DNA of 64,000 nt from a candidate division WOR-3 bacterium (GTDB lineage: Bacteria; Hydrothermota; Tepidihabitantia; Tepidihabitantales; Tepidihabitantaceae). The notes beneath the pieces are model-generated. The model was not told the origin of the DNA. It saw only the letters and a list, made by a program, of their open reading frames with translations, and made no database searches. The stretch is taken from NCBI GenBank assembly GCA_039801085.1, contig JBDRTY010000001.1, forward strand, positions 695,538 to 759,537, given 5' to 3'. The position numbers and the translations under genes are program-made. Shown in pieces: positions 6,355 to 60,318 of this stretch; within the stretch, counting starts at the first letter, position 1; every line of letters begins with the position of its first letter.

Positions 6355-6383
6355 AGTTTAACAATCGGATGAATATATGTCAA
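6355..6383 (-). promoter_or_regulatory. Promoter of the TRL lipoprotein gene
   Basis: On the minus strand TTGACA (6383-6378), a 17-nt spacer, and TAAACT (6360-6355). It lies just beyond the fusA stop and gives a leader of about 50 nt that includes the strong ribosome-binding site. Confidence 0.7.
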
Positions 6384-8485: not shown

Positions 8486-8513
8486 ATGGTAATTCAATCT
8501 TACAACCGGTCAA
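8486..8513 (-). promoter_or_regulatory. Candidate promoter of fusA
   Basis: On the minus strand TTGACC (8513-8508), a 16-nt spacer, and TACCAT (8491-8486), then 8 nt to the ATG. The -10 matches the consensus at only four of six positions, but the spacing fits the other promoters in the window. Confidence 0.5.
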
Positions 8514-11862: not shown

Positions 11863-11890
11863 ATATTATTTTTACTGGATGAAGAGTCAA
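11863..11890 (-). promoter_or_regulatory. Leaderless promoter of the four-gene membrane operon
   Basis: On the minus strand TTGACT (11890-11885), a 16-nt spacer, TAATAT (11868-11863), then exactly 7 nt to the ATG at 11855. The predicted transcript begins at or next to the A of the start codon. Confidence 0.75.
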
Positions 11891-14228: not shown

Positions 14229-14256
14229 ACAATAAATGAAAGAATGCCGATGTCAA
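14229..14256 (-). promoter_or_regulatory. Promoter of iorAB
   Basis: On the minus strand TTGACA (14256-14251), a 16-nt spacer, TATTGT (14234-14229), then 12 nt to the ATG at 14216. The expected leader is only about 5 nt. Confidence 0.65.
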
Positions 14257-25179: not shown

Positions 25180-25207
25180 TTGACTGTTAAAAAGCATAAT
25201 ATAGTAT
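25180..25207 (+). promoter_or_regulatory. Leaderless promoter of the 157-aa unknown gene
   Basis: TTGACT (25180-25185), a 16-nt spacer, TAGTAT (25202-25207), then 6 nt to the ATG at 25214. No ribosome-binding site. The 195-bp divergent gap otherwise shows nothing I can name. Confidence 0.65.
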
Positions 25208-26424: not shown

Positions 26425-26453
26425 TTGACTTTATTTCTATTCCAATTTATGCT
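26425..26453 (+). promoter_or_regulatory. Candidate promoter of the MBL-mutL-miaA unit
   Basis: TTGACT (26425-26430), a 17-nt spacer, TATGCT (26448-26453), 3 nt before the ATG at 26457. A start 6-7 nt past the -10 would fall at or after that ATG, so the true start codon may be the TTG at 26460. Confidence 0.5.
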
Positions 26454-26456
26454 AAC

Positions 26457-27272
26457 ATGTTGCAGGAGAAAAAAGATAGCGATAGACTTATATTTCTGGG
26501 ATCCGGCGGTGCAAGAATTGTGATTGCCAGGCAGGTGCGTGCATCAGGGGGTATGTGGTTTTCCCTAAGCGGGCTTCAGTTTCATGTTGACCCCGGACCT
26601 GGCGCTTTGGTACGCGCATTATCCAGCCGGCACATCCTTGATCCTACCAAGTTATCGGCACTTCTACTTTCTCATCGGCACCTTGATCATTCTGCTGATA
26701 TTAATGTGATGATAGAGGCAATGACTATGGGGGGGACAGAAAGGAGGGGAAGGCTCTATGCGCCGGCCGATGCGCTGGAAGGTGATGATCCAGTTGTATT
26801 TCGTTATCTCAGGGCTTTCCTTGAAGAGATTATAGTTCTGAGGGAGAAGGGTATTTACAACCTGGGAAAGATCAACTTTACCTGTCCGGTAAGACATCGT
26901 CATCGGGGTGAGGTGTATGGTTTCAAATTTGAGAGTCCTGGACTGGAAATTTCTTATATTGCCGATACCGCCTATTTCCCGGAGTTGGCAGATTATTATC
27001 AGGCAGATATTGTAATTTTCAATGTTGCTCGCTACAAACCTTCGGACCTCGATCATCTTCACTTCCCGGAGGTTGAACAGTTAATAAAAGCAATGAAACC
27101 GAAACTGGCGATCATGAGTCATTTCGGCATGACGATGATTAAAGCAAAACCTTGGTTGCTGGCGCGTGAATTGAGCCAGAGAACCGGATGCGAAGTAATT
27201 GCAGCCAGTGACGGGTTGGCAATATCATTAGAACGATATAAAAAAGATGAGACAGGAAAGAAAACCGGTTAG
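26457..27272 (+). CDS. Metallo-beta-lactamase-fold hydrolase
   Basis: The 271-residue cytoplasmic hydrolase has the binuclear metal motif HxHxDH (H73, H75, D77, H78) in LLSHRHLDHSAD. Later ligands are plausible in CPVRHRHRG, YIADTAYF and IMSHFGM. The start DRLIFLGSGGARIVIARQ resembles the beta-CASP-less MBL subgroup related to RNase Z and phosphodiesterases. Its end overlaps the mutL start by 26 nt, so they are coupled. The substrate (nucleic acid or small ester) is unknown. Confidence 0.85.
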   Translation: MLQEKKDSDRLIFLGSGGARIVIARQVRASGGMWFSLSGLQFHVDPGPGALVRALSSRHILDPTKLSALLLSHRHLDHSADINVMIEAMTMGGTERRGRLYAPADALEGDDPVVFRYLRAFLEEIIVLREKGIYNLGKINFTCPVRHRHRGEVYGFKFESPGLEISYIADTAYFPELADYYQADIVIFNVARYKPSDLDHLHFPEVEQLIKAMKPKLAIMSHFGMTMIKAKPWLLARELSQRTGCEVIAASDGLAISLERYKKDETGKKTG

Positions 27273-34535: not shown

Positions 34536-36970
34536 TCCTGGACCGGCGCTTCTGCTTCGGACGGAGCCTCCCTGAATATCAGGCGATTTCCATCCCGGTC
34601 CACGACAATATGTGGCTGTTCAGAAAATCCACCCTTCAGCAGCTCTTCAGCTAAGGGGTCTTCAAGCAGACGGCGGAGTGCCCTTTTTATCGGACGGGCA
34701 CCATATTGTGGATCAAAGCCTTCTTGGACGAGCAGTTCTTTCGCAGCGGGGGTCAGTTCAATCGTGATTTTCTTTTCCTTTAAACGAGCGGCAATTTCTC
34801 GGATTTGGATGTCGACGATAGCCTCCATTTGAGGGCGGTCAAGGGGATGAAAGACAATGACTTCGTCAACCCGGTTAAGAAATTCCGGACGGAATACTCT
34901 TTTGACCTCAGTCATTACCTTATTTCTGATATTTTCATAATTTACCTCAGGGGTGGGTGATGTAAAACCGACACTCGCGACACCCCTGATTTCGGTAGAA
35001 GCGATATTGGAAGTCATTATGATCACAGTATTTTTGAAGTTGATCTTGCGGCCCAAGGAATCGGTAATTTGACCGTCATCGAGAATCTGCAGCAGAATAT
35101 TAAAAACATCCGGGTGTGCCTTTTCGATTTCATCAAAAAGAACGACCGAATAAGGTTTGTGTCGGACTTTTTCTGTCAGCTGTCCGCCTTCTTCATAGCC
35201 GACATAGCCTGGAGGCGCACCCACTAATCGGGATACATTGAATTTTTCCATATATTCCGACATATCGAACCGAAGCAACGCTTCTTCATTTCCGAAAAGG
35301 AAACGGGCAAGAACGCGGGCAAGTTCAGTTTTGCCGACACCAGTCGGTCCGAGAAATATAAATGAACCAATAGGCCTTCTGGGGTCTTTGATGCCGGCGC
35401 GGGAGCGGCGAATGGCCTTGGCTACTGCTGTAATTGCCTCATCCTGCCCGACGATCCACTGTTTTAGTTCTTCTTCCATCCGCAATAATCGTGACGATTC
35501 TTTTTCTTCCAGTTTTGCCAGAGGTACCGAAGTCCATGAGGACACTACATATGCAATGTCTTCTTCAGTAACTACCGGGAAACTGCCTTTTTTCTCCCAT
35601 TCTTTGCGCTTACGTTTAAGGTATTCTGTGAGTTTTTTCTGTTCATCACGCAGTTCAGCTGCCTTCTCAAATTCCTGCCGGCGAACCGCATCCTCCTTAG
35701 CCCGGGTTATTTTTTCAATCCGCCGTTCAATCTCATCCAGTTCGGGATTTATGACGGGGCGCATCAGTTTCACTCTTGAACCGGCTTCATCAATTACATC
35801 TATCGCCTTATCAGGCAGGAAGCGATCAGTTATATAGCGGTCAGCAAGATAAGCTGCAGCATAAAGCGCAGCATCTTCATAGGTTACGTTGTGGTGAAGT
35901 TCGTATTTTTCTTTTAAACCTTGGAGAATTTGCACGGTTTCAGACACAGTGGGAGGATCTACCATGATCTTCTGGAAACGGCGTTCCAATGCCGAATGTT
36001 TTTCGATGTACCGGCGATATTCTTCAGGGGTGGTAGCACCGATGACTTGGATTTCACCTCTTGCGAGTGCTGGTTTGAGAATACTAGAAGCGTCAATAGC
36101 CCCCTCAGCTGCACCTGCGCCAACAATTGTATGAATTTCATCAATAAAGATGATACAATCACCAGAATGCTGGATTTCGTTGAGAATTGATTTTAACCGT
36201 TCCTCAAACTGGCCACGATATTTGGTACCGGCAACGATTGCTGCCATATCAAGCGCTAGCACCCGTTTATTTTTTAGAACATTCGGAACCCGGCCCGCAA
36301 TAATCCGCTGTGCCAAACCTTCGACAATGGCAGTTTTGCCGACGCCGGCTTCTCCGATTAGCACCGGGTTGTTCTTTTTGCGCCGGGCAAGAATTTGAAT
36401 TATCCGTTCGATCTCTTTTTCGCGCCCGATAATCGGGTCCAGTTTTTCCTCGCGAGCCAATTGTGTTAAATCCCTTGAGAAGTAATCAAGGGCTGGTGTG
36501 CGGGATTTACCTTTGGTTCCGGTGGAATTTTTGTCTCCGGATAATAACCGGATTGTTTCTTGACGAACCAGTTCGATGTCTACGCCCAGTGATTGGAGTA
36601 CCTGGCAGGCAATACCGTGTTCTTCGCGCAGCAAGCCGAGCAAGAGATGTTCGGTTCCGACATATGTATGATTCATTTTTCTGGCTTCGTCAACCGCATA
36701 ATTCAAAGCTGACTTTGCTTCTTGGTTCAGGGGGACATCCCCCAGGACCAGAGTTTCAAAACCTGCGGGAACAGCATTTTCTACCGCCCGGCGTAAATCG
36801 TCGAGATTGATGCCTAAGTTAGTCAGGACAACTGCAGCAACACCTTCTCCTTCCTTTACAATACCGAGCAGTATATGCTCAGTGCCGATATAATCGTGAT
36901 GAAGTCTAATAGCTTCTTGGCGCGCATAATTCATTACTTTGCGCACGCGGTCAGTAAATCTTTCCTGCAT
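34532..36970 (-). CDS. clpC: ClpC-type AAA+ unfoldase
   Basis: The 812-residue protein has an N-terminal Clp repeat domain (1-145, [11 protein letters not shown] and [11 protein letters not shown]), D1 with GEAGVGKT, a UVR/M-domain coiled coil (about 420-470, REQ-like [18 protein letters not shown]), and D2 with GPTGVGKTE. It delivers substrates to the ClpP protease. No McsB or CtsR is adjacent. The start codon has no ribosome-binding site and lies 10 nt past a -10 box. The bamA link by a 4-nt overlap couples a cytoplasmic unfoldase to outer-membrane biogenesis. Confidence 0.96.
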
Positions 36971-36980
36971 ATCTATAAAT

Positions 36981-37008
36981 AATTTATTTGAATTCCTTCA
37001 AAAGTCAA
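36981..37008 (-). promoter_or_regulatory. Promoter of clpC-bamA
   Basis: On the minus strand TTGACT (37008-37003), a 16-nt spacer, TAAATT (36986-36981), then 10 nt to the ATG at 36970. No Shine-Dalgarno sequence is visible. Confidence 0.65.
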
Positions 37009-39646: not shown

Positions 39647-39674
39647 AAAATAATATATTTTGTTTTTAAGTCAA
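39647..39674 (-). promoter_or_regulatory. Leaderless promoter of the broken secreted-protein gene
   Basis: On the minus strand TTGACT (39674-39669), a 16-nt spacer, TATTTT (39652-39647), then 7 nt to the GTG at 39639. It is divergent from the promoter at 39705. Confidence 0.55.
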
Positions 39675-42524: not shown

Positions 42525-42553
42525 TTGCCAAACAGGTAACTATGTGTTAAAAT
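42525..42553 (+). promoter_or_regulatory. Promoter of the TPR protein gene
   Basis: TTGCCA (42525-42530), a 17-nt spacer, TAAAAT (42548-42553), then 9 nt to the ATG at 42563, with no ribosome-binding site. Confidence 0.55.
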
Positions 42554-44534: not shown

Positions 44535-44562
44535 TTGACTGATAAATTTCTATTGTTATGAT
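44535..44562 (+). promoter_or_regulatory. Promoter of tRNA-Val, tRNA begins 7 nt past the -10
   Basis: TTGACT (44535-44540), a 16-nt spacer, TATGAT (44557-44562), then 7 nt to base 44570, the first G of the tRNA. Confidence 0.75.
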
Positions 44563-51133: not shown

Positions 51134-51161
51134 ATTTTAGAGCAACCGCGGTTAAAGTCAA
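51134..51161 (-). promoter_or_regulatory. Promoter of tRNA-Leu, tRNA begins 8 nt past the -10
   Basis: On the minus strand TTGACT (51161-51156), a 16-nt spacer, TAAAAT (51139-51134), then 8 nt to base 51125, the first base of the tRNA. Confidence 0.75.
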
Positions 51162-51175
51162 GTATCTGGCAGGTT

Positions 51176-51203
51176 TTGACAGCAGAATTCGCTGTGTTAT
51201 GCT
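51176..51203 (+). promoter_or_regulatory. Leaderless promoter of the transglutaminase gene
   Basis: TTGACA (51176-51181), a 16-nt spacer, TATGCT (51198-51203), then 6 nt to the ATG at 51210. The -35 is 14 bp from the divergent tRNA-Leu -35. Confidence 0.75.
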
Positions 51204-51209
51204 GAACAG

Positions 51210-52625
51210 ATGAGGCGGCTAACGGTTGTTATTTTTTACCTTGCTTTCCTGTTCTGCAGTAACCGGCCGGTGTCCAGCATGTCCGGTCAGGCAGTAACTG
51301 GCACAGACTATGGGGAGGTGTGGTTAGCTACTTATCTTGCCGGAATGAAGATCGGTTATGGTGTGCTTAAATATAATCGAAGTAATGGCGGTTTTAATTT
51401 TGATTATGCCACCCGAATGACCGTGGGTATGCTGGGGAAAAAGCAGACGGTTAATGTCCATTCCCACGTCGCTACTGATGAAAATCTGGCACTGCGGTCG
51501 TTTGAATTCAGGATGAGTTCACAGGATGGTTCTTTTACGGCACGGGGCAGGTGTGAAGACGGCAGATTTGTGCTTGAAACTGGCAATGGAACGAGGGTAA
51601 TTCACCCGACGAGAAAGTTGTATCCGATCGAAGCGTTAGGGATAATAGTGACAAGAAGCCAGCCTGAACCCGGCACGCGTTTGAATTATCTGACATTCGA
51701 TGGTGCGGTGCTTGATACGATGGGGACGGAAGTGGAGGTGCTGGGAAAGGAAATGTTCAAAATCGGTGAGACAGCGGTTCCGGCGCTGAAAATGAAGGTA
51801 AGGCGGGCAAAGTTTGATATGACAGTTTGGGTGGATGAAAATGGTATGACTCTGAAGGAGGATTCGCCGATGGGTATCAGTTCAGTCCGGGTGGGCAGTG
51901 AGCAGGCGCTTGCTGGCGAGGCGGGGTATCCTTTAGATCTTCTGAGAATCTTTGCCGTGCGGGTAGATACAATAATACCGGAGGGAAGAAGGTGGCGCCG
52001 GATGGTCTTAACAGTTTCAGAAATTGATACTGCACTTTTACCAGCCAGTGACGAAAATCAGCGGATCATCACTGTAGAAGGGGGAGATGTCCGGATGGAA
52101 ATAAAAATTGCTCTGCCCGATTCTACCGTGAAGTTGCCGGTTGACACTTGCCGGGAGTTTCTGAAGCCGACGGTAACCATTCAATCCACAGCTCCGGAAA
52201 TTGTCCGGACTGCAAGACAGATTGTGAATGGAACTGACAATGCTGCTGCTGCGGTACAGGAGATCACCGACTGGGTTTTTCGGTCATTGCAGAAGGAGGC
52301 GGTGGCATCGCTCCCCAATGCGGTTGATGTGCTGAAAAACATGAAGGGTGATTGCAATGAGCATGCAGTGCTTTTTGCCGCCCTTTCCCGTGCTGCCGGC
52401 ATACCGGCAAAGGTAGCTGTCGGATTGGTCTACCTTCGGGATGGATTTTATTATCATGCCTGGAATGAGGTTTATCTCGGGAAATGGGTTCCAGTGGATG
52501 CCACTTTTGGTGAGTTCCCGGCGAGTGCAGTCCGGTTAAAACTTGCTGAAGGGGAGCTGAGTGAACAGGCTCAGGTGTTGGGCGTGGTCAGCAGGATAAA
52601 AATTCGGGTGCTGGAATTTGAATAA
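51210..52625 (+). CDS. Exported transglutaminase-like protein
   Basis: The 471-residue protein has an N-terminal hydrophobic segment (VVIFYLAFLFC) that could be a lipoprotein signal, though SNRP after the Cys is unusual. The C-terminal third is a transglutaminase-like domain with an intact triad: Cys382 (GDCNEHA), His416 (YHAWNEV), Asp430 (VDATFG). The N-terminal two thirds show repeated beta-strands and no known family. Such proteins act as proteases or crosslinkers in the envelope. It starts leaderless. Confidence 0.87.
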   Translation: MRRLTVVIFYLAFLFCSNRPVSSMSGQAVTGTDYGEVWLATYLAGMKIGYGVLKYNRSNGGFNFDYATRMTVGMLGKKQTVNVHSHVATDENLALRSFEFRMSSQDGSFTARGRCEDGRFVLETGNGTRVIHPTRKLYPIEALGIIVTRSQPEPGTRLNYLTFDGAVLDTMGTEVEVLGKEMFKIGETAVPALKMKVRRAKFDMTVWVDENGMTLKEDSPMGISSVRVGSEQALAGEAGYPLDLLRIFAVRVDTIIPEGRRWRRMVLTVSEIDTALLPASDENQRIITVEGGDVRMEIKIALPDSTVKLPVDTCREFLKPTVTIQSTAPEIVRTARQIVNGTDNAAAAVQEITDWVFRSLQKEAVASLPNAVDVLKNMKGDCNEHAVLFAALSRAAGIPAKVAVGLVYLRDGFYYHAWNEVYLGKWVPVDATFGEFPASAVRLKLAEGELSEQAQVLGVVSRIKIRVLEFE

Positions 52626-52635
52626 GCGGCAGCGA

Positions 52636-52663
52636 TTGACCGGCGCTCGGTGCCGGATATAAT
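52636..52663 (+). promoter_or_regulatory. Leaderless promoter that fixes the fabH start
   Basis: TTGACC (52636-52641), a 16-nt spacer, perfect TATAAT (52658-52663), then 7 nt to an in-frame GTG at 52671. It lies inside the reading frame that would begin at GTG 52650. Confidence 0.8.
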
Positions 52664-52670
52664 TAACATT

Positions 52671-53723
52671 GTGAATTATCTAAATTCGATATGGAAGCCG
52701 CAGGAACACCAGGACGGGGAGAACAGGTTAACGAATATCGGATATTCTGCAGTCATTGCCGGTACCGGGTTTGACGTTCCGGAAAGGGTTCTGACCAATG
52801 AGGACCTGGAGAAGATTCTGGATACATCCGATGAATGGATTACCGAGCGGACCGGAATGAAGGAACGCAGGATTGCAGGTCCCACTGAAGCCGCATCCGA
52901 TTTTGCCTGCCGGGCAGCGCAACGGGCATTGGAGGAAGCAGGTGTCCGGTCCGAAGATCTGGATCTGATTATTGTTGCTACTGTGACCGGCGATATGCCA
53001 TTTCCTTCAACTGCCTGTATTGTCCAGGATCGGTTGGGTGCCCGGAATGCCGCGGCGATGGATTTGGGTGCCGGATGTTCCGGTTTCATCTATGGTTTGA
53101 CTACCGCCCGCCAGTTCATTGCTACAGGCACTTACCGGACCATTCTGGTTATCGGAGTTGAGGTTCTTTCCAAAATCACCGACTGGACCGACCGCAGTAC
53201 CGCAGTACTGCTCGCTGATGGCGCGGGTGCCGTCGTGTTGCGTGCTGATCAAAATCAGGGGCGGGGAATCATTGCTACTTATCTGGCAGCAGACGGTTCC
53301 CATGGAAATGACTTATATATGCCAGCGGGGGGGTCGCGGATTCCGGCATCGATAGAATCGGTACAGCAACGGCTTCATTACCTGAAGATGAATGGCAGTG
53401 CTATTTTCAAGGTTGCGGTGCGTTCAATGGCGGATGTGGTGAGGCGGCTTCTGGACCAGGCAAGACTCCGGGCGGAAGACATAAAACTGGTCATTCCCCA
53501 TCAGGCTAATCTCCGGATAATTGAGGCGATGGCAAAGTTGCTGAATTTTCCGATGGAGCGGGTATTCGTTAATATCCAGAAGTATGCGAATACATCATCG
53601 GCATCAACAATTATTGCTCTGGATGAGGCACGGAAATCGGGTCGGGTCCGGCAGAATGATCTGATAATCATGGTGGCTTTTGGCGCCGGCCTCACTTGGG
53701 GCGGAGTTTTAATCCGTCTGTAA
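52671..53723 (+). CDS. fabH: 3-oxoacyl-[ACP] synthase III
   Basis: The 350-residue condensing enzyme starts fatty acid synthesis from acyl-CoA and malonyl-ACP. The triad is Cys136 (GAGCSGF), His277 (PHQANLR) and Asn307 (YANTSSAST). I start it at GTG 52671 because a consensus promoter places the transcript start there; GTG 52650 lies upstream of that start. The N-terminal ~25 residues before YSAVIAGTGFDVPERVL are longer than usual for FabH, so an internal start is possible. The DMT transporter gene follows after 9 nt. Confidence 0.93.
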   Translation: MNYLNSIWKPQEHQDGENRLTNIGYSAVIAGTGFDVPERVLTNEDLEKILDTSDEWITERTGMKERRIAGPTEAASDFACRAAQRALEEAGVRSEDLDLIIVATVTGDMPFPSTACIVQDRLGARNAAAMDLGAGCSGFIYGLTTARQFIATGTYRTILVIGVEVLSKITDWTDRSTAVLLADGAGAVVLRADQNQGRGIIATYLAADGSHGNDLYMPAGGSRIPASIESVQQRLHYLKMNGSAIFKVAVRSMADVVRRLLDQARLRAEDIKLVIPHQANLRIIEAMAKLLNFPMERVFVNIQKYANTSSASTIIALDEARKSGRVRQNDLIIMVAFGAGLTWGGVLIRL

Positions 53724-60281: not shown

Positions 60282-60290
60282 CGGATTGAT

Positions 60291-60318
60291 TTTATAGAAA
60301 AATTTTTATTAAAGTCAA
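60291..60318 (-). promoter_or_regulatory. Promoter of the liv operon
   Basis: On the minus strand TTGACT (60318-60313), a 16-nt spacer, TATAAA (60296-60291), then 9 nt to the TTG at 60281. Its -35 box is 12 bp from the divergent -35 at 60331. Confidence 0.7.

Follow-up and report, generated by a model that had tools for sequence, protein, structure and literature searches.

Predicted leaderless genes adjoining TTGACN-16-TANNNT promoters in a candidate division WOR-3 bacterium, and a second promoter architecture within the phylum

Leaderless genes in other lineages and the WOR-3 host

A -10 box lying next to a leaderless gene is already an established arrangement in the literature (PMC3160421, PMC12340547, PMC4633059, PMC9581028). 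In Deinococcus-Thermus, leaderless genes carry a -10 motif adjoining the open reading frame, and they account for about 1/3 of the genes of D. radiodurans (Zhong et al. 2025, PMC12340547). In mycobacteria, a 5'-terminal ATG or GTG suffices for initiation, GTG being equal to ATG (Shell et al. 2015, PMC4633059); leaderless initiation has been shown experimentally there and is supported in Deinococcus (PMC4633059, PMC12340547). Predicted leaderless genes, both those termed 'TA-led' (Zheng et al. 2011, PMC3160421) and those of the GeneMarkS-2 leaderless model (cited in PMC9581028), have been defined by a -10-like signal some 10 bp ahead of the start, and leaderless transcription is predicted for 21.6% of bacterial species.

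The window analysed here, a stretch of 64,000 nt, belongs to a metagenome-assembled genome of 1.91 Mb in 7 contigs. Its FabH shares 97% identity with the protein of candidate division WOR-3 isolate SKW181, the next best relatives being mostly WOR-3 MAGs; in current NCBI naming the WOR-3 phylum is Caldifarciminota. The first-pass annotation of this DNA had pointed to leaderless initiation in Deinococcota, actinobacteria and haloarchaea, where it is known, but the host belongs to none of these groups. WOR-3 does not figure in the published group lists consulted. No literature pairing WOR-3 with leaderless genes or with Shine-Dalgarno (SD) was found among the papers searched, and likewise none for the newer phylum names among the top matches.

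The WOR-3 layout resembles that of Deinococcus-Thermus in that TANNNT precedes the start by about 6-7 bp, without an SD site, beside a class of genes with an RBS motif, the comparison covering the -10 box and the SD site. However, the phylum is unrelated, and the WOR-3 layout includes a strong TTGAC at a preferred distance of 16 nt. As in mycobacteria, both ATG and GTG are found at the starts of the 83 genes that we predict to be leaderless (56 ATG, 19 GTG and 8 TTG), but here leaderlessness is deduced from sequence, in another phylum and with another promoter consensus. Several of the 8 TTG starts have an in-frame ATG close by, and some TTG calls are probably wrong starts, since mycobacteria use only ATG and GTG in this position (PMC4633059). 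With its -10-like signal upstream of the start, the layout also resembles the class described by the 'TA-led' and GeneMarkS-2 models.

Promoters and predicted transcription starts in the window

The window holds 17 matches to TTGACN-16-TANNNT where 1.69 would be expected, and none of 100 dinucleotide shuffles reached 17. Read by position, 8 matches lie 6-12 nt before a gene start without an SD site, 2 lie before tRNA genes (gaps of 7 and 8 nt), 5 lie 22-103 nt ahead of the starts of SD genes (1076, 14343, 39836, 46572 and 49584), and 2 fall within genes. Ten sites had been listed beforehand as having this motif with a start 6-12 nt further on; eight of them, including those at 51210 and 52671, are exact, while 60281 and 42563 deviate from it (Table 1), the former having TTGACT-16-TATAAA-9-TTG as an alternative reading. 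For the seven genes listed with longer leaders, AGGAG-like sites were confirmed by direct reading. In addition, window positions 26425-26460 hold TTGACT-17-TATGCT with an ATG 3 nt and a TTG 6 nt past the -10 box, both in the same frame and either of them a candidate start.

Table 1. Promoters, predicted leaderless starts and associated genes in the window (positions in the 64,000-nt stretch; gaps counted from the -10 box).
Feature	Position	Strand	Remarks
Promoter TTGACA-16-TATGCT	51176..51203	+	gap 6 nt to ATG 51210; direct reading; boxes unchanged in SKW181
Transglutaminase-like gene	51210-52625	+	Transglut_core E 2e-22
ATG, predicted +1 of leaderless mRNA	51210..51212	+	6 nt past -10 box; without SD
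fabH promoter TTGACC-16-TATAAT	52636..52663	+	gap 7 nt to GTG; direct reading; layout also in WOR-3 orthologs
fabH GTG, predicted +1 of leaderless mRNA	52671..52673	+	gene 52671-53723; ACP_syn_III domains
Promoter TTGACT-16-TAATAT	11863..11890	-	gap 7 to ATG 11855 (DUF6754 protein); boxes conserved in SKW181, gap there 6
Promoter TTGACT-16-TAGTAT	25180..25207	+	gap 6 to ATG 25214; upstream region not found in syntenic part of SKW181
Promoter TTGACT-16-TATTTT	39647..39674	-	gap 7 to GTG 39639; weaker case, with 3 extra bases between boxes in SKW181
Promoter TTGACC-16-TACCAT	8486..8513	-	gap 8 to ATG 8477 (EF-G-like GTPase)
Promoter, best reading TTGACT-18-TAAAAT	60289..60318	-	gap 7 to TTG 60281 (ABC permease); departs from strict motif
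TTGCCA-17-TAAAAT	42525..42553	+	gap 9 to ATG 42563 (TPR protein); departs from strict motif
Promoter TTGACT-16-TAAATT	36981..37008	-	gap 10 to ATG 36970 (ClpC-like); predicted leader ~3 nt
Promoter TTGACA-16-TATTGT	14229..14256	-	gap 12 to ATG 14216 (2-oxoacid:ferredoxin oxidoreductase-like); predicted leader ~5 nt
Further predicted leaderless promoter TTGACA-17-TAAACT	6355..6383	-	gap 7 to ATG 6347; absent from the earlier list
Promoter TTGACT-16-TATGAT	44535..44562	+	7 nt ahead of tRNA-Val 5' end (44570)
Promoter TTGACT-16-TAAAAT	51134..51161	-	8 nt ahead of tRNA-Leu 5' end (51125); back to back with 51176 promoter

Leaderless mRNAs are very likely at these starts. In the explanation that we favour, with a probability of about 0.9 for the whole, TTGACN-16(17)-TANNNT would be the housekeeping sigma-70 promoter, and at about a quarter of the genes leading a transcription unit its -10 box would lie 5-9 nt before the start codon, making these genes leaderless. 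As to where transcription starts and how ribosomes engage, we infer that RNA polymerase starts about 6-8 nt past the -10 box, so that the first base of the mRNA would be the start codon's own A or G, and that 70S ribosomes, or 30S subunits with IF2 and initiator tRNA, presumably bind the 5'-terminal AUG or GUG. Ordinary SD sites would serve the operon-internal genes and those with longer leaders; the 16S tail of this genome keeps CCTCCT, the intact anti-SD, and thus SD pairing is possible. Minor upstream promoters giving longer leaders may also exist at the genes that we predict to be leaderless.

The tRNA promoters offer a ruler for the start point. Since tRNA-Val begins 7 nt past its -10 box, transcription must start at most 8 nt past the box, and both tRNA genes of the window have little or no 5' leader. 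A loss of RNase P accompanying tRNAs without 5' leaders, as in RNase-P-free 'leaderless tRNA' organisms, was considered and rejected, as RNase P RNA is encoded (L148, E 1.5e-92) and other tRNAs have longer leaders. The promoters of tRNA-Leu and of the transglutaminase-like gene are separated by 14 nt between their -35 boxes.

Alternatively, the transcripts could carry very short leaders of 1-6 nt and be recognised as short-leader rather than strictly leaderless mRNAs. Gaps of 9-12 nt occur, as at 36970 and 14216, and the start point is a prediction from sequence, but the mode is at a gap of 6 nt and the tRNA-Val promoter limits initiation to 8 nt past the box. We consider this alternative unlikely, and the two mechanisms overlap in practice.

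Genome-wide gaps, Shine-Dalgarno sites and conservation

Gene-level statistics were obtained from an 864-kb sample (45% of the genome), the remainder being covered by pattern searches, and gene starts were taken as longest-ORF calls, some of which are uncertain. In the whole genome, TTGACN-16-TANNNT-6-ATG occurs 35 times, against 2 occurrences of the reversed pattern; the same layout is found 22 times with a gap of 7 nt and 6 times with a gap of 15 nt. At sites with 16-nt spacers in the sample, in-frame start codons lie at gaps of 5, 6, 7, 8 and 9 nt in 6, 20, 11, 13 and 8 cases, respectively, and out-of-frame start-like codons in the same sample show no peak at these gaps. The first-pass annotation had staked the leaderless interpretation on a genome-wide peak of distances at 6-8 nt, and such a peak is present, at 5-9 nt only. 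A promoter model returned 83 genes with a gap of 5-9 nt, compared to about 19 (3%) when the gap was shifted to 22-26 nt. Genes positive in the model are strongly concentrated at the heads of transcription units, with 19 of 384 operon-internal genes against 64 of 238 leading ones (p 1e-14), or 27%, a figure that misses promoters with a weak -35 box and includes a few percent of chance matches, the weight matrix being almost invariant in TTGAC. As the excess of -10 boxes alone at gaps of 5-9 nt amounts to 23% of leading genes, the leaderless layout appears to be present at roughly a quarter (23-27%) of them.

Genes with this layout are almost devoid of SD sites. An SD match at the start was found in 1 of the 83 genes and in 250 of the 539 others (Fisher 4e-19), the former rate being below even the chance rate at internal ATGs (10%). 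SD sites accompany about 34% of leading and about 44% of operon-internal genes. The leaderless interpretation of the first-pass annotation is therefore supported by the gap peak, the absence of SD sites, the conservation and the single start of FabH, but its wording that leaderless promoters are "the rule" has to be abandoned, because the majority of leading genes are not leaderless and SD starts are at least as common.

In regard to the spacer, TTGAC and TANNNT are separated by 15, 16, 17 and 18 nt at 15, 160, 74 and 30 sites of the 864-kb sample, respectively. The preference for 16 nt is thus real, about 2:1 over 17 nt, although the claim that it holds "at nearly every promoter" was too strong. 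In the class, at a gap of 6 nt, spacers of 16 and 17 nt were matched 3307 and 836 times among 61 genomes, and in one genome only is the 17-nt spacer at least as common. In E. coli, the 17-nt spacer is the commonest (44%; Mitchell 2003, as cited in PMC10911233), and this modal spacer of the standard sigma-70 promoter is not the mode in the window's genome. A start at 5-9 nt follows 58 of the 160 sites with 16-nt spacers and 26 of the 74 with 17-nt spacers; with such similar shares, the preference for 16 nt is not tied to leaderlessness.

The boxes are conserved where the surrounding sequence is not. Compared to the congener SKW181, none of 121 positions in TTGAC, T-A---T and the start codon changed, against 89 of 707 in the spacer, discriminator and upstream sequence (p 6e-7). 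As the sites were picked from one genome only, the comparison is free of bias from selection in the second. Downstream of the starts, differences at codon positions 1, 2 and 3 number 24, 18 and 93, and the stretch from the leaderless start to the next possible start scores as coding while the stretch upstream does not. That both coding bias and conservation set in at the start codon is consistent with translation of a 5'-terminal AUG or GUG.

FabH is the best candidate for a leaderless gene, being deeply conserved and without an alternative start. Its TTGACN-16-TANNNT-7-GTG is kept in WOR-3 orthologs across genera (L021-L025 and L027), with diverged spacer sequences, and in three of these, from three genera (L023, L024 and L025), the GTG is the sole possible start ahead of the conserved FabH core. 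Another ortholog (L026) has an 8-ATG version of the layout, the strict layout is not present in L028, and in a Zixibacteria ortholog (L029) the ATG instead follows a purine-rich GAGAGGGAAGAA stretch. The gene thus supplies a conserved, predicted leaderless GUG gene without an alternative start. Gene finders that expect SD sites would misplace starts such as this one, and the rule combining promoter and start codon could be used for annotating WOR-3 genomes.

These data also bear on the possibility that the promoters are real but the starts mis-assigned, with translation beginning at a downstream codon that has its own SD site and the apparent start forming part of the leader. Gene starts were indeed assigned from sequence, and 5 of the 83 genes have a strong SD site at some start codon within the next 90 nt. 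On the other hand, a second start is lacking within 30 nt in 59 of the 83 and within 90 nt in 20, and the coding score of the stretch before the next start, the substitution bias by codon position and those FabH orthologs in which just one start is possible all argue against it, making this explanation very unlikely. Least probable of all as a source of the -10-like boxes is chance A+T richness upstream of genes, with the real promoters lying further upstream. Intergenic regions do have a high A+T content, and a TANNNT on its own turns up at about 5% of positions, but paired boxes with a fixed spacer exceed shuffles tenfold in the window, peak at gaps of 5-9 nt only and are selectively conserved. 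We therefore retain the explanation by leaderless mRNAs, for which the motif, its spacing, the gap peak, the exclusion of SD sites and the conservation can be read in the DNA itself. Divergent pairs in which both genes have the leaderless layout were also observed, with starts 83-119 nt apart (L110 17333/17417, L120 3706/3797, L005 3502/3618, L013 6437/6555 and L009 6303/6423).

Distribution in the phylum and a second promoter architecture

Each of the 61 genomes examined from the class level downwards has the layout, with 3307 matches at a gap of 6 nt, 746 at a gap of 15 nt and 43 to the reversed pattern. By this distribution, an uncultured phylum would be added to the few lineages in which leaderless genes abound. 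At the scale of the phylum (147 genomes, gap of 7 nt), the layout was found in families f1-f11, f15 and f28-f34; in f12-f14, f16-f27 and f35-f37 it was weak or lacking. Absence of TTGAC-16-TANNNT-ATG as a sign that leaderless genes were lost was considered and rejected, because genomes G127 (f23) and G119 (f22) have strong -10 boxes 6-8 nt before their starts; it follows that there the -35 box changed and the leaderless layout did not. These are two of four genomes sampled, the other two, G136 and G140, having few leaderless genes. Measured as the excess of -10 boxes at gaps of 5-9 nt, the layout reaches 54% of 134 leading genes in G127 and 35% in G119, compared to 4% in G136, 13% in G140 and 23% in the window's genome by the same measure. 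As the -35 box can change alone, low counts of the TTGAC pattern in other phyla are uninformative on leaderlessness.

In family f23, the promoter takes the form TnCnnCcKTADAAT and is mostly leaderless (L136-L140 and L149-L168, from G127), and it is found in all 8 genomes of the family. With the -10 hexamer numbered -12 to -7, the 74 promoters aligned in G127 have C at -18 in 91%, at -15 in 64% and at -14 in 50%, followed by G or T at -13, and their -35 region holds about 0.1 bit or less per position. The pattern CNNCNKTADAAT-7-ATG has 48-77 matches in each of the 8 genomes, against 0-5 for the reversed pattern and at most 16 in the rest of the phylum. In a scan that ignores gene calls, C at -18 was found in 81% of boxes 6-8 nt before RTG and in 38-47% of those at other distances. 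Furthermore, 9 of 9 tRNA genes sampled in G127 have an upstream box of the f23 form, in a scan scored for that form.

The sigma factor of the family differs as well. Region 4.2 of RpoD reads TRERVRQLE(I/T)(S/Q)A(I/L)EKL in 7 of 7 f23 genomes with a complete gene (L178 and L227-L232). In E. coli numbering, this represents the replacement of K593 by S or Q and of K/R596 by E in the helix that reads the -35 box. In the four genomes examined that use TTGAC, both basic residues are retained. The RpoD proteins of f22 (L173, L222, L224 and L226) and f23 also share Q446H, near the extended -10 contact. Family f22 is intermediate, with C at -15 and Q446H, and without C at -18. The match between promoter change and RpoD substitutions in f23 is a correlation and as such suggestive.

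Taken with the RpoD match and the intermediate state of f22, the lack of a -35 signal in f23, where more than half of the leading genes would be leaderless, makes it probable that the housekeeping promoter was rebuilt within the phylum while the fusion of -10 box and start codon was kept. If so, f23 would have a new type of bacterial housekeeping promoter that does not depend on a -35 box, and two promoter architectures for one leaderless layout within a phylum would allow the evolution of -35 recognition and of leaderlessness to be compared side by side. In E. coli, extended -10 (TGn) promoters function without a -35 box (reviewed in PMC10911233). As in these, the -35 box would be replaced in f23 by an element immediately ahead of the -10 box, but the element consists of C-18 (91%) and C-15 (64%) rather than T-15 G-14. 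A third promoter type, similar to TTGAN-17-TANNNT, was observed in G136 of family f26 (L131-L135 and L201-L210), together with few leaderless genes.
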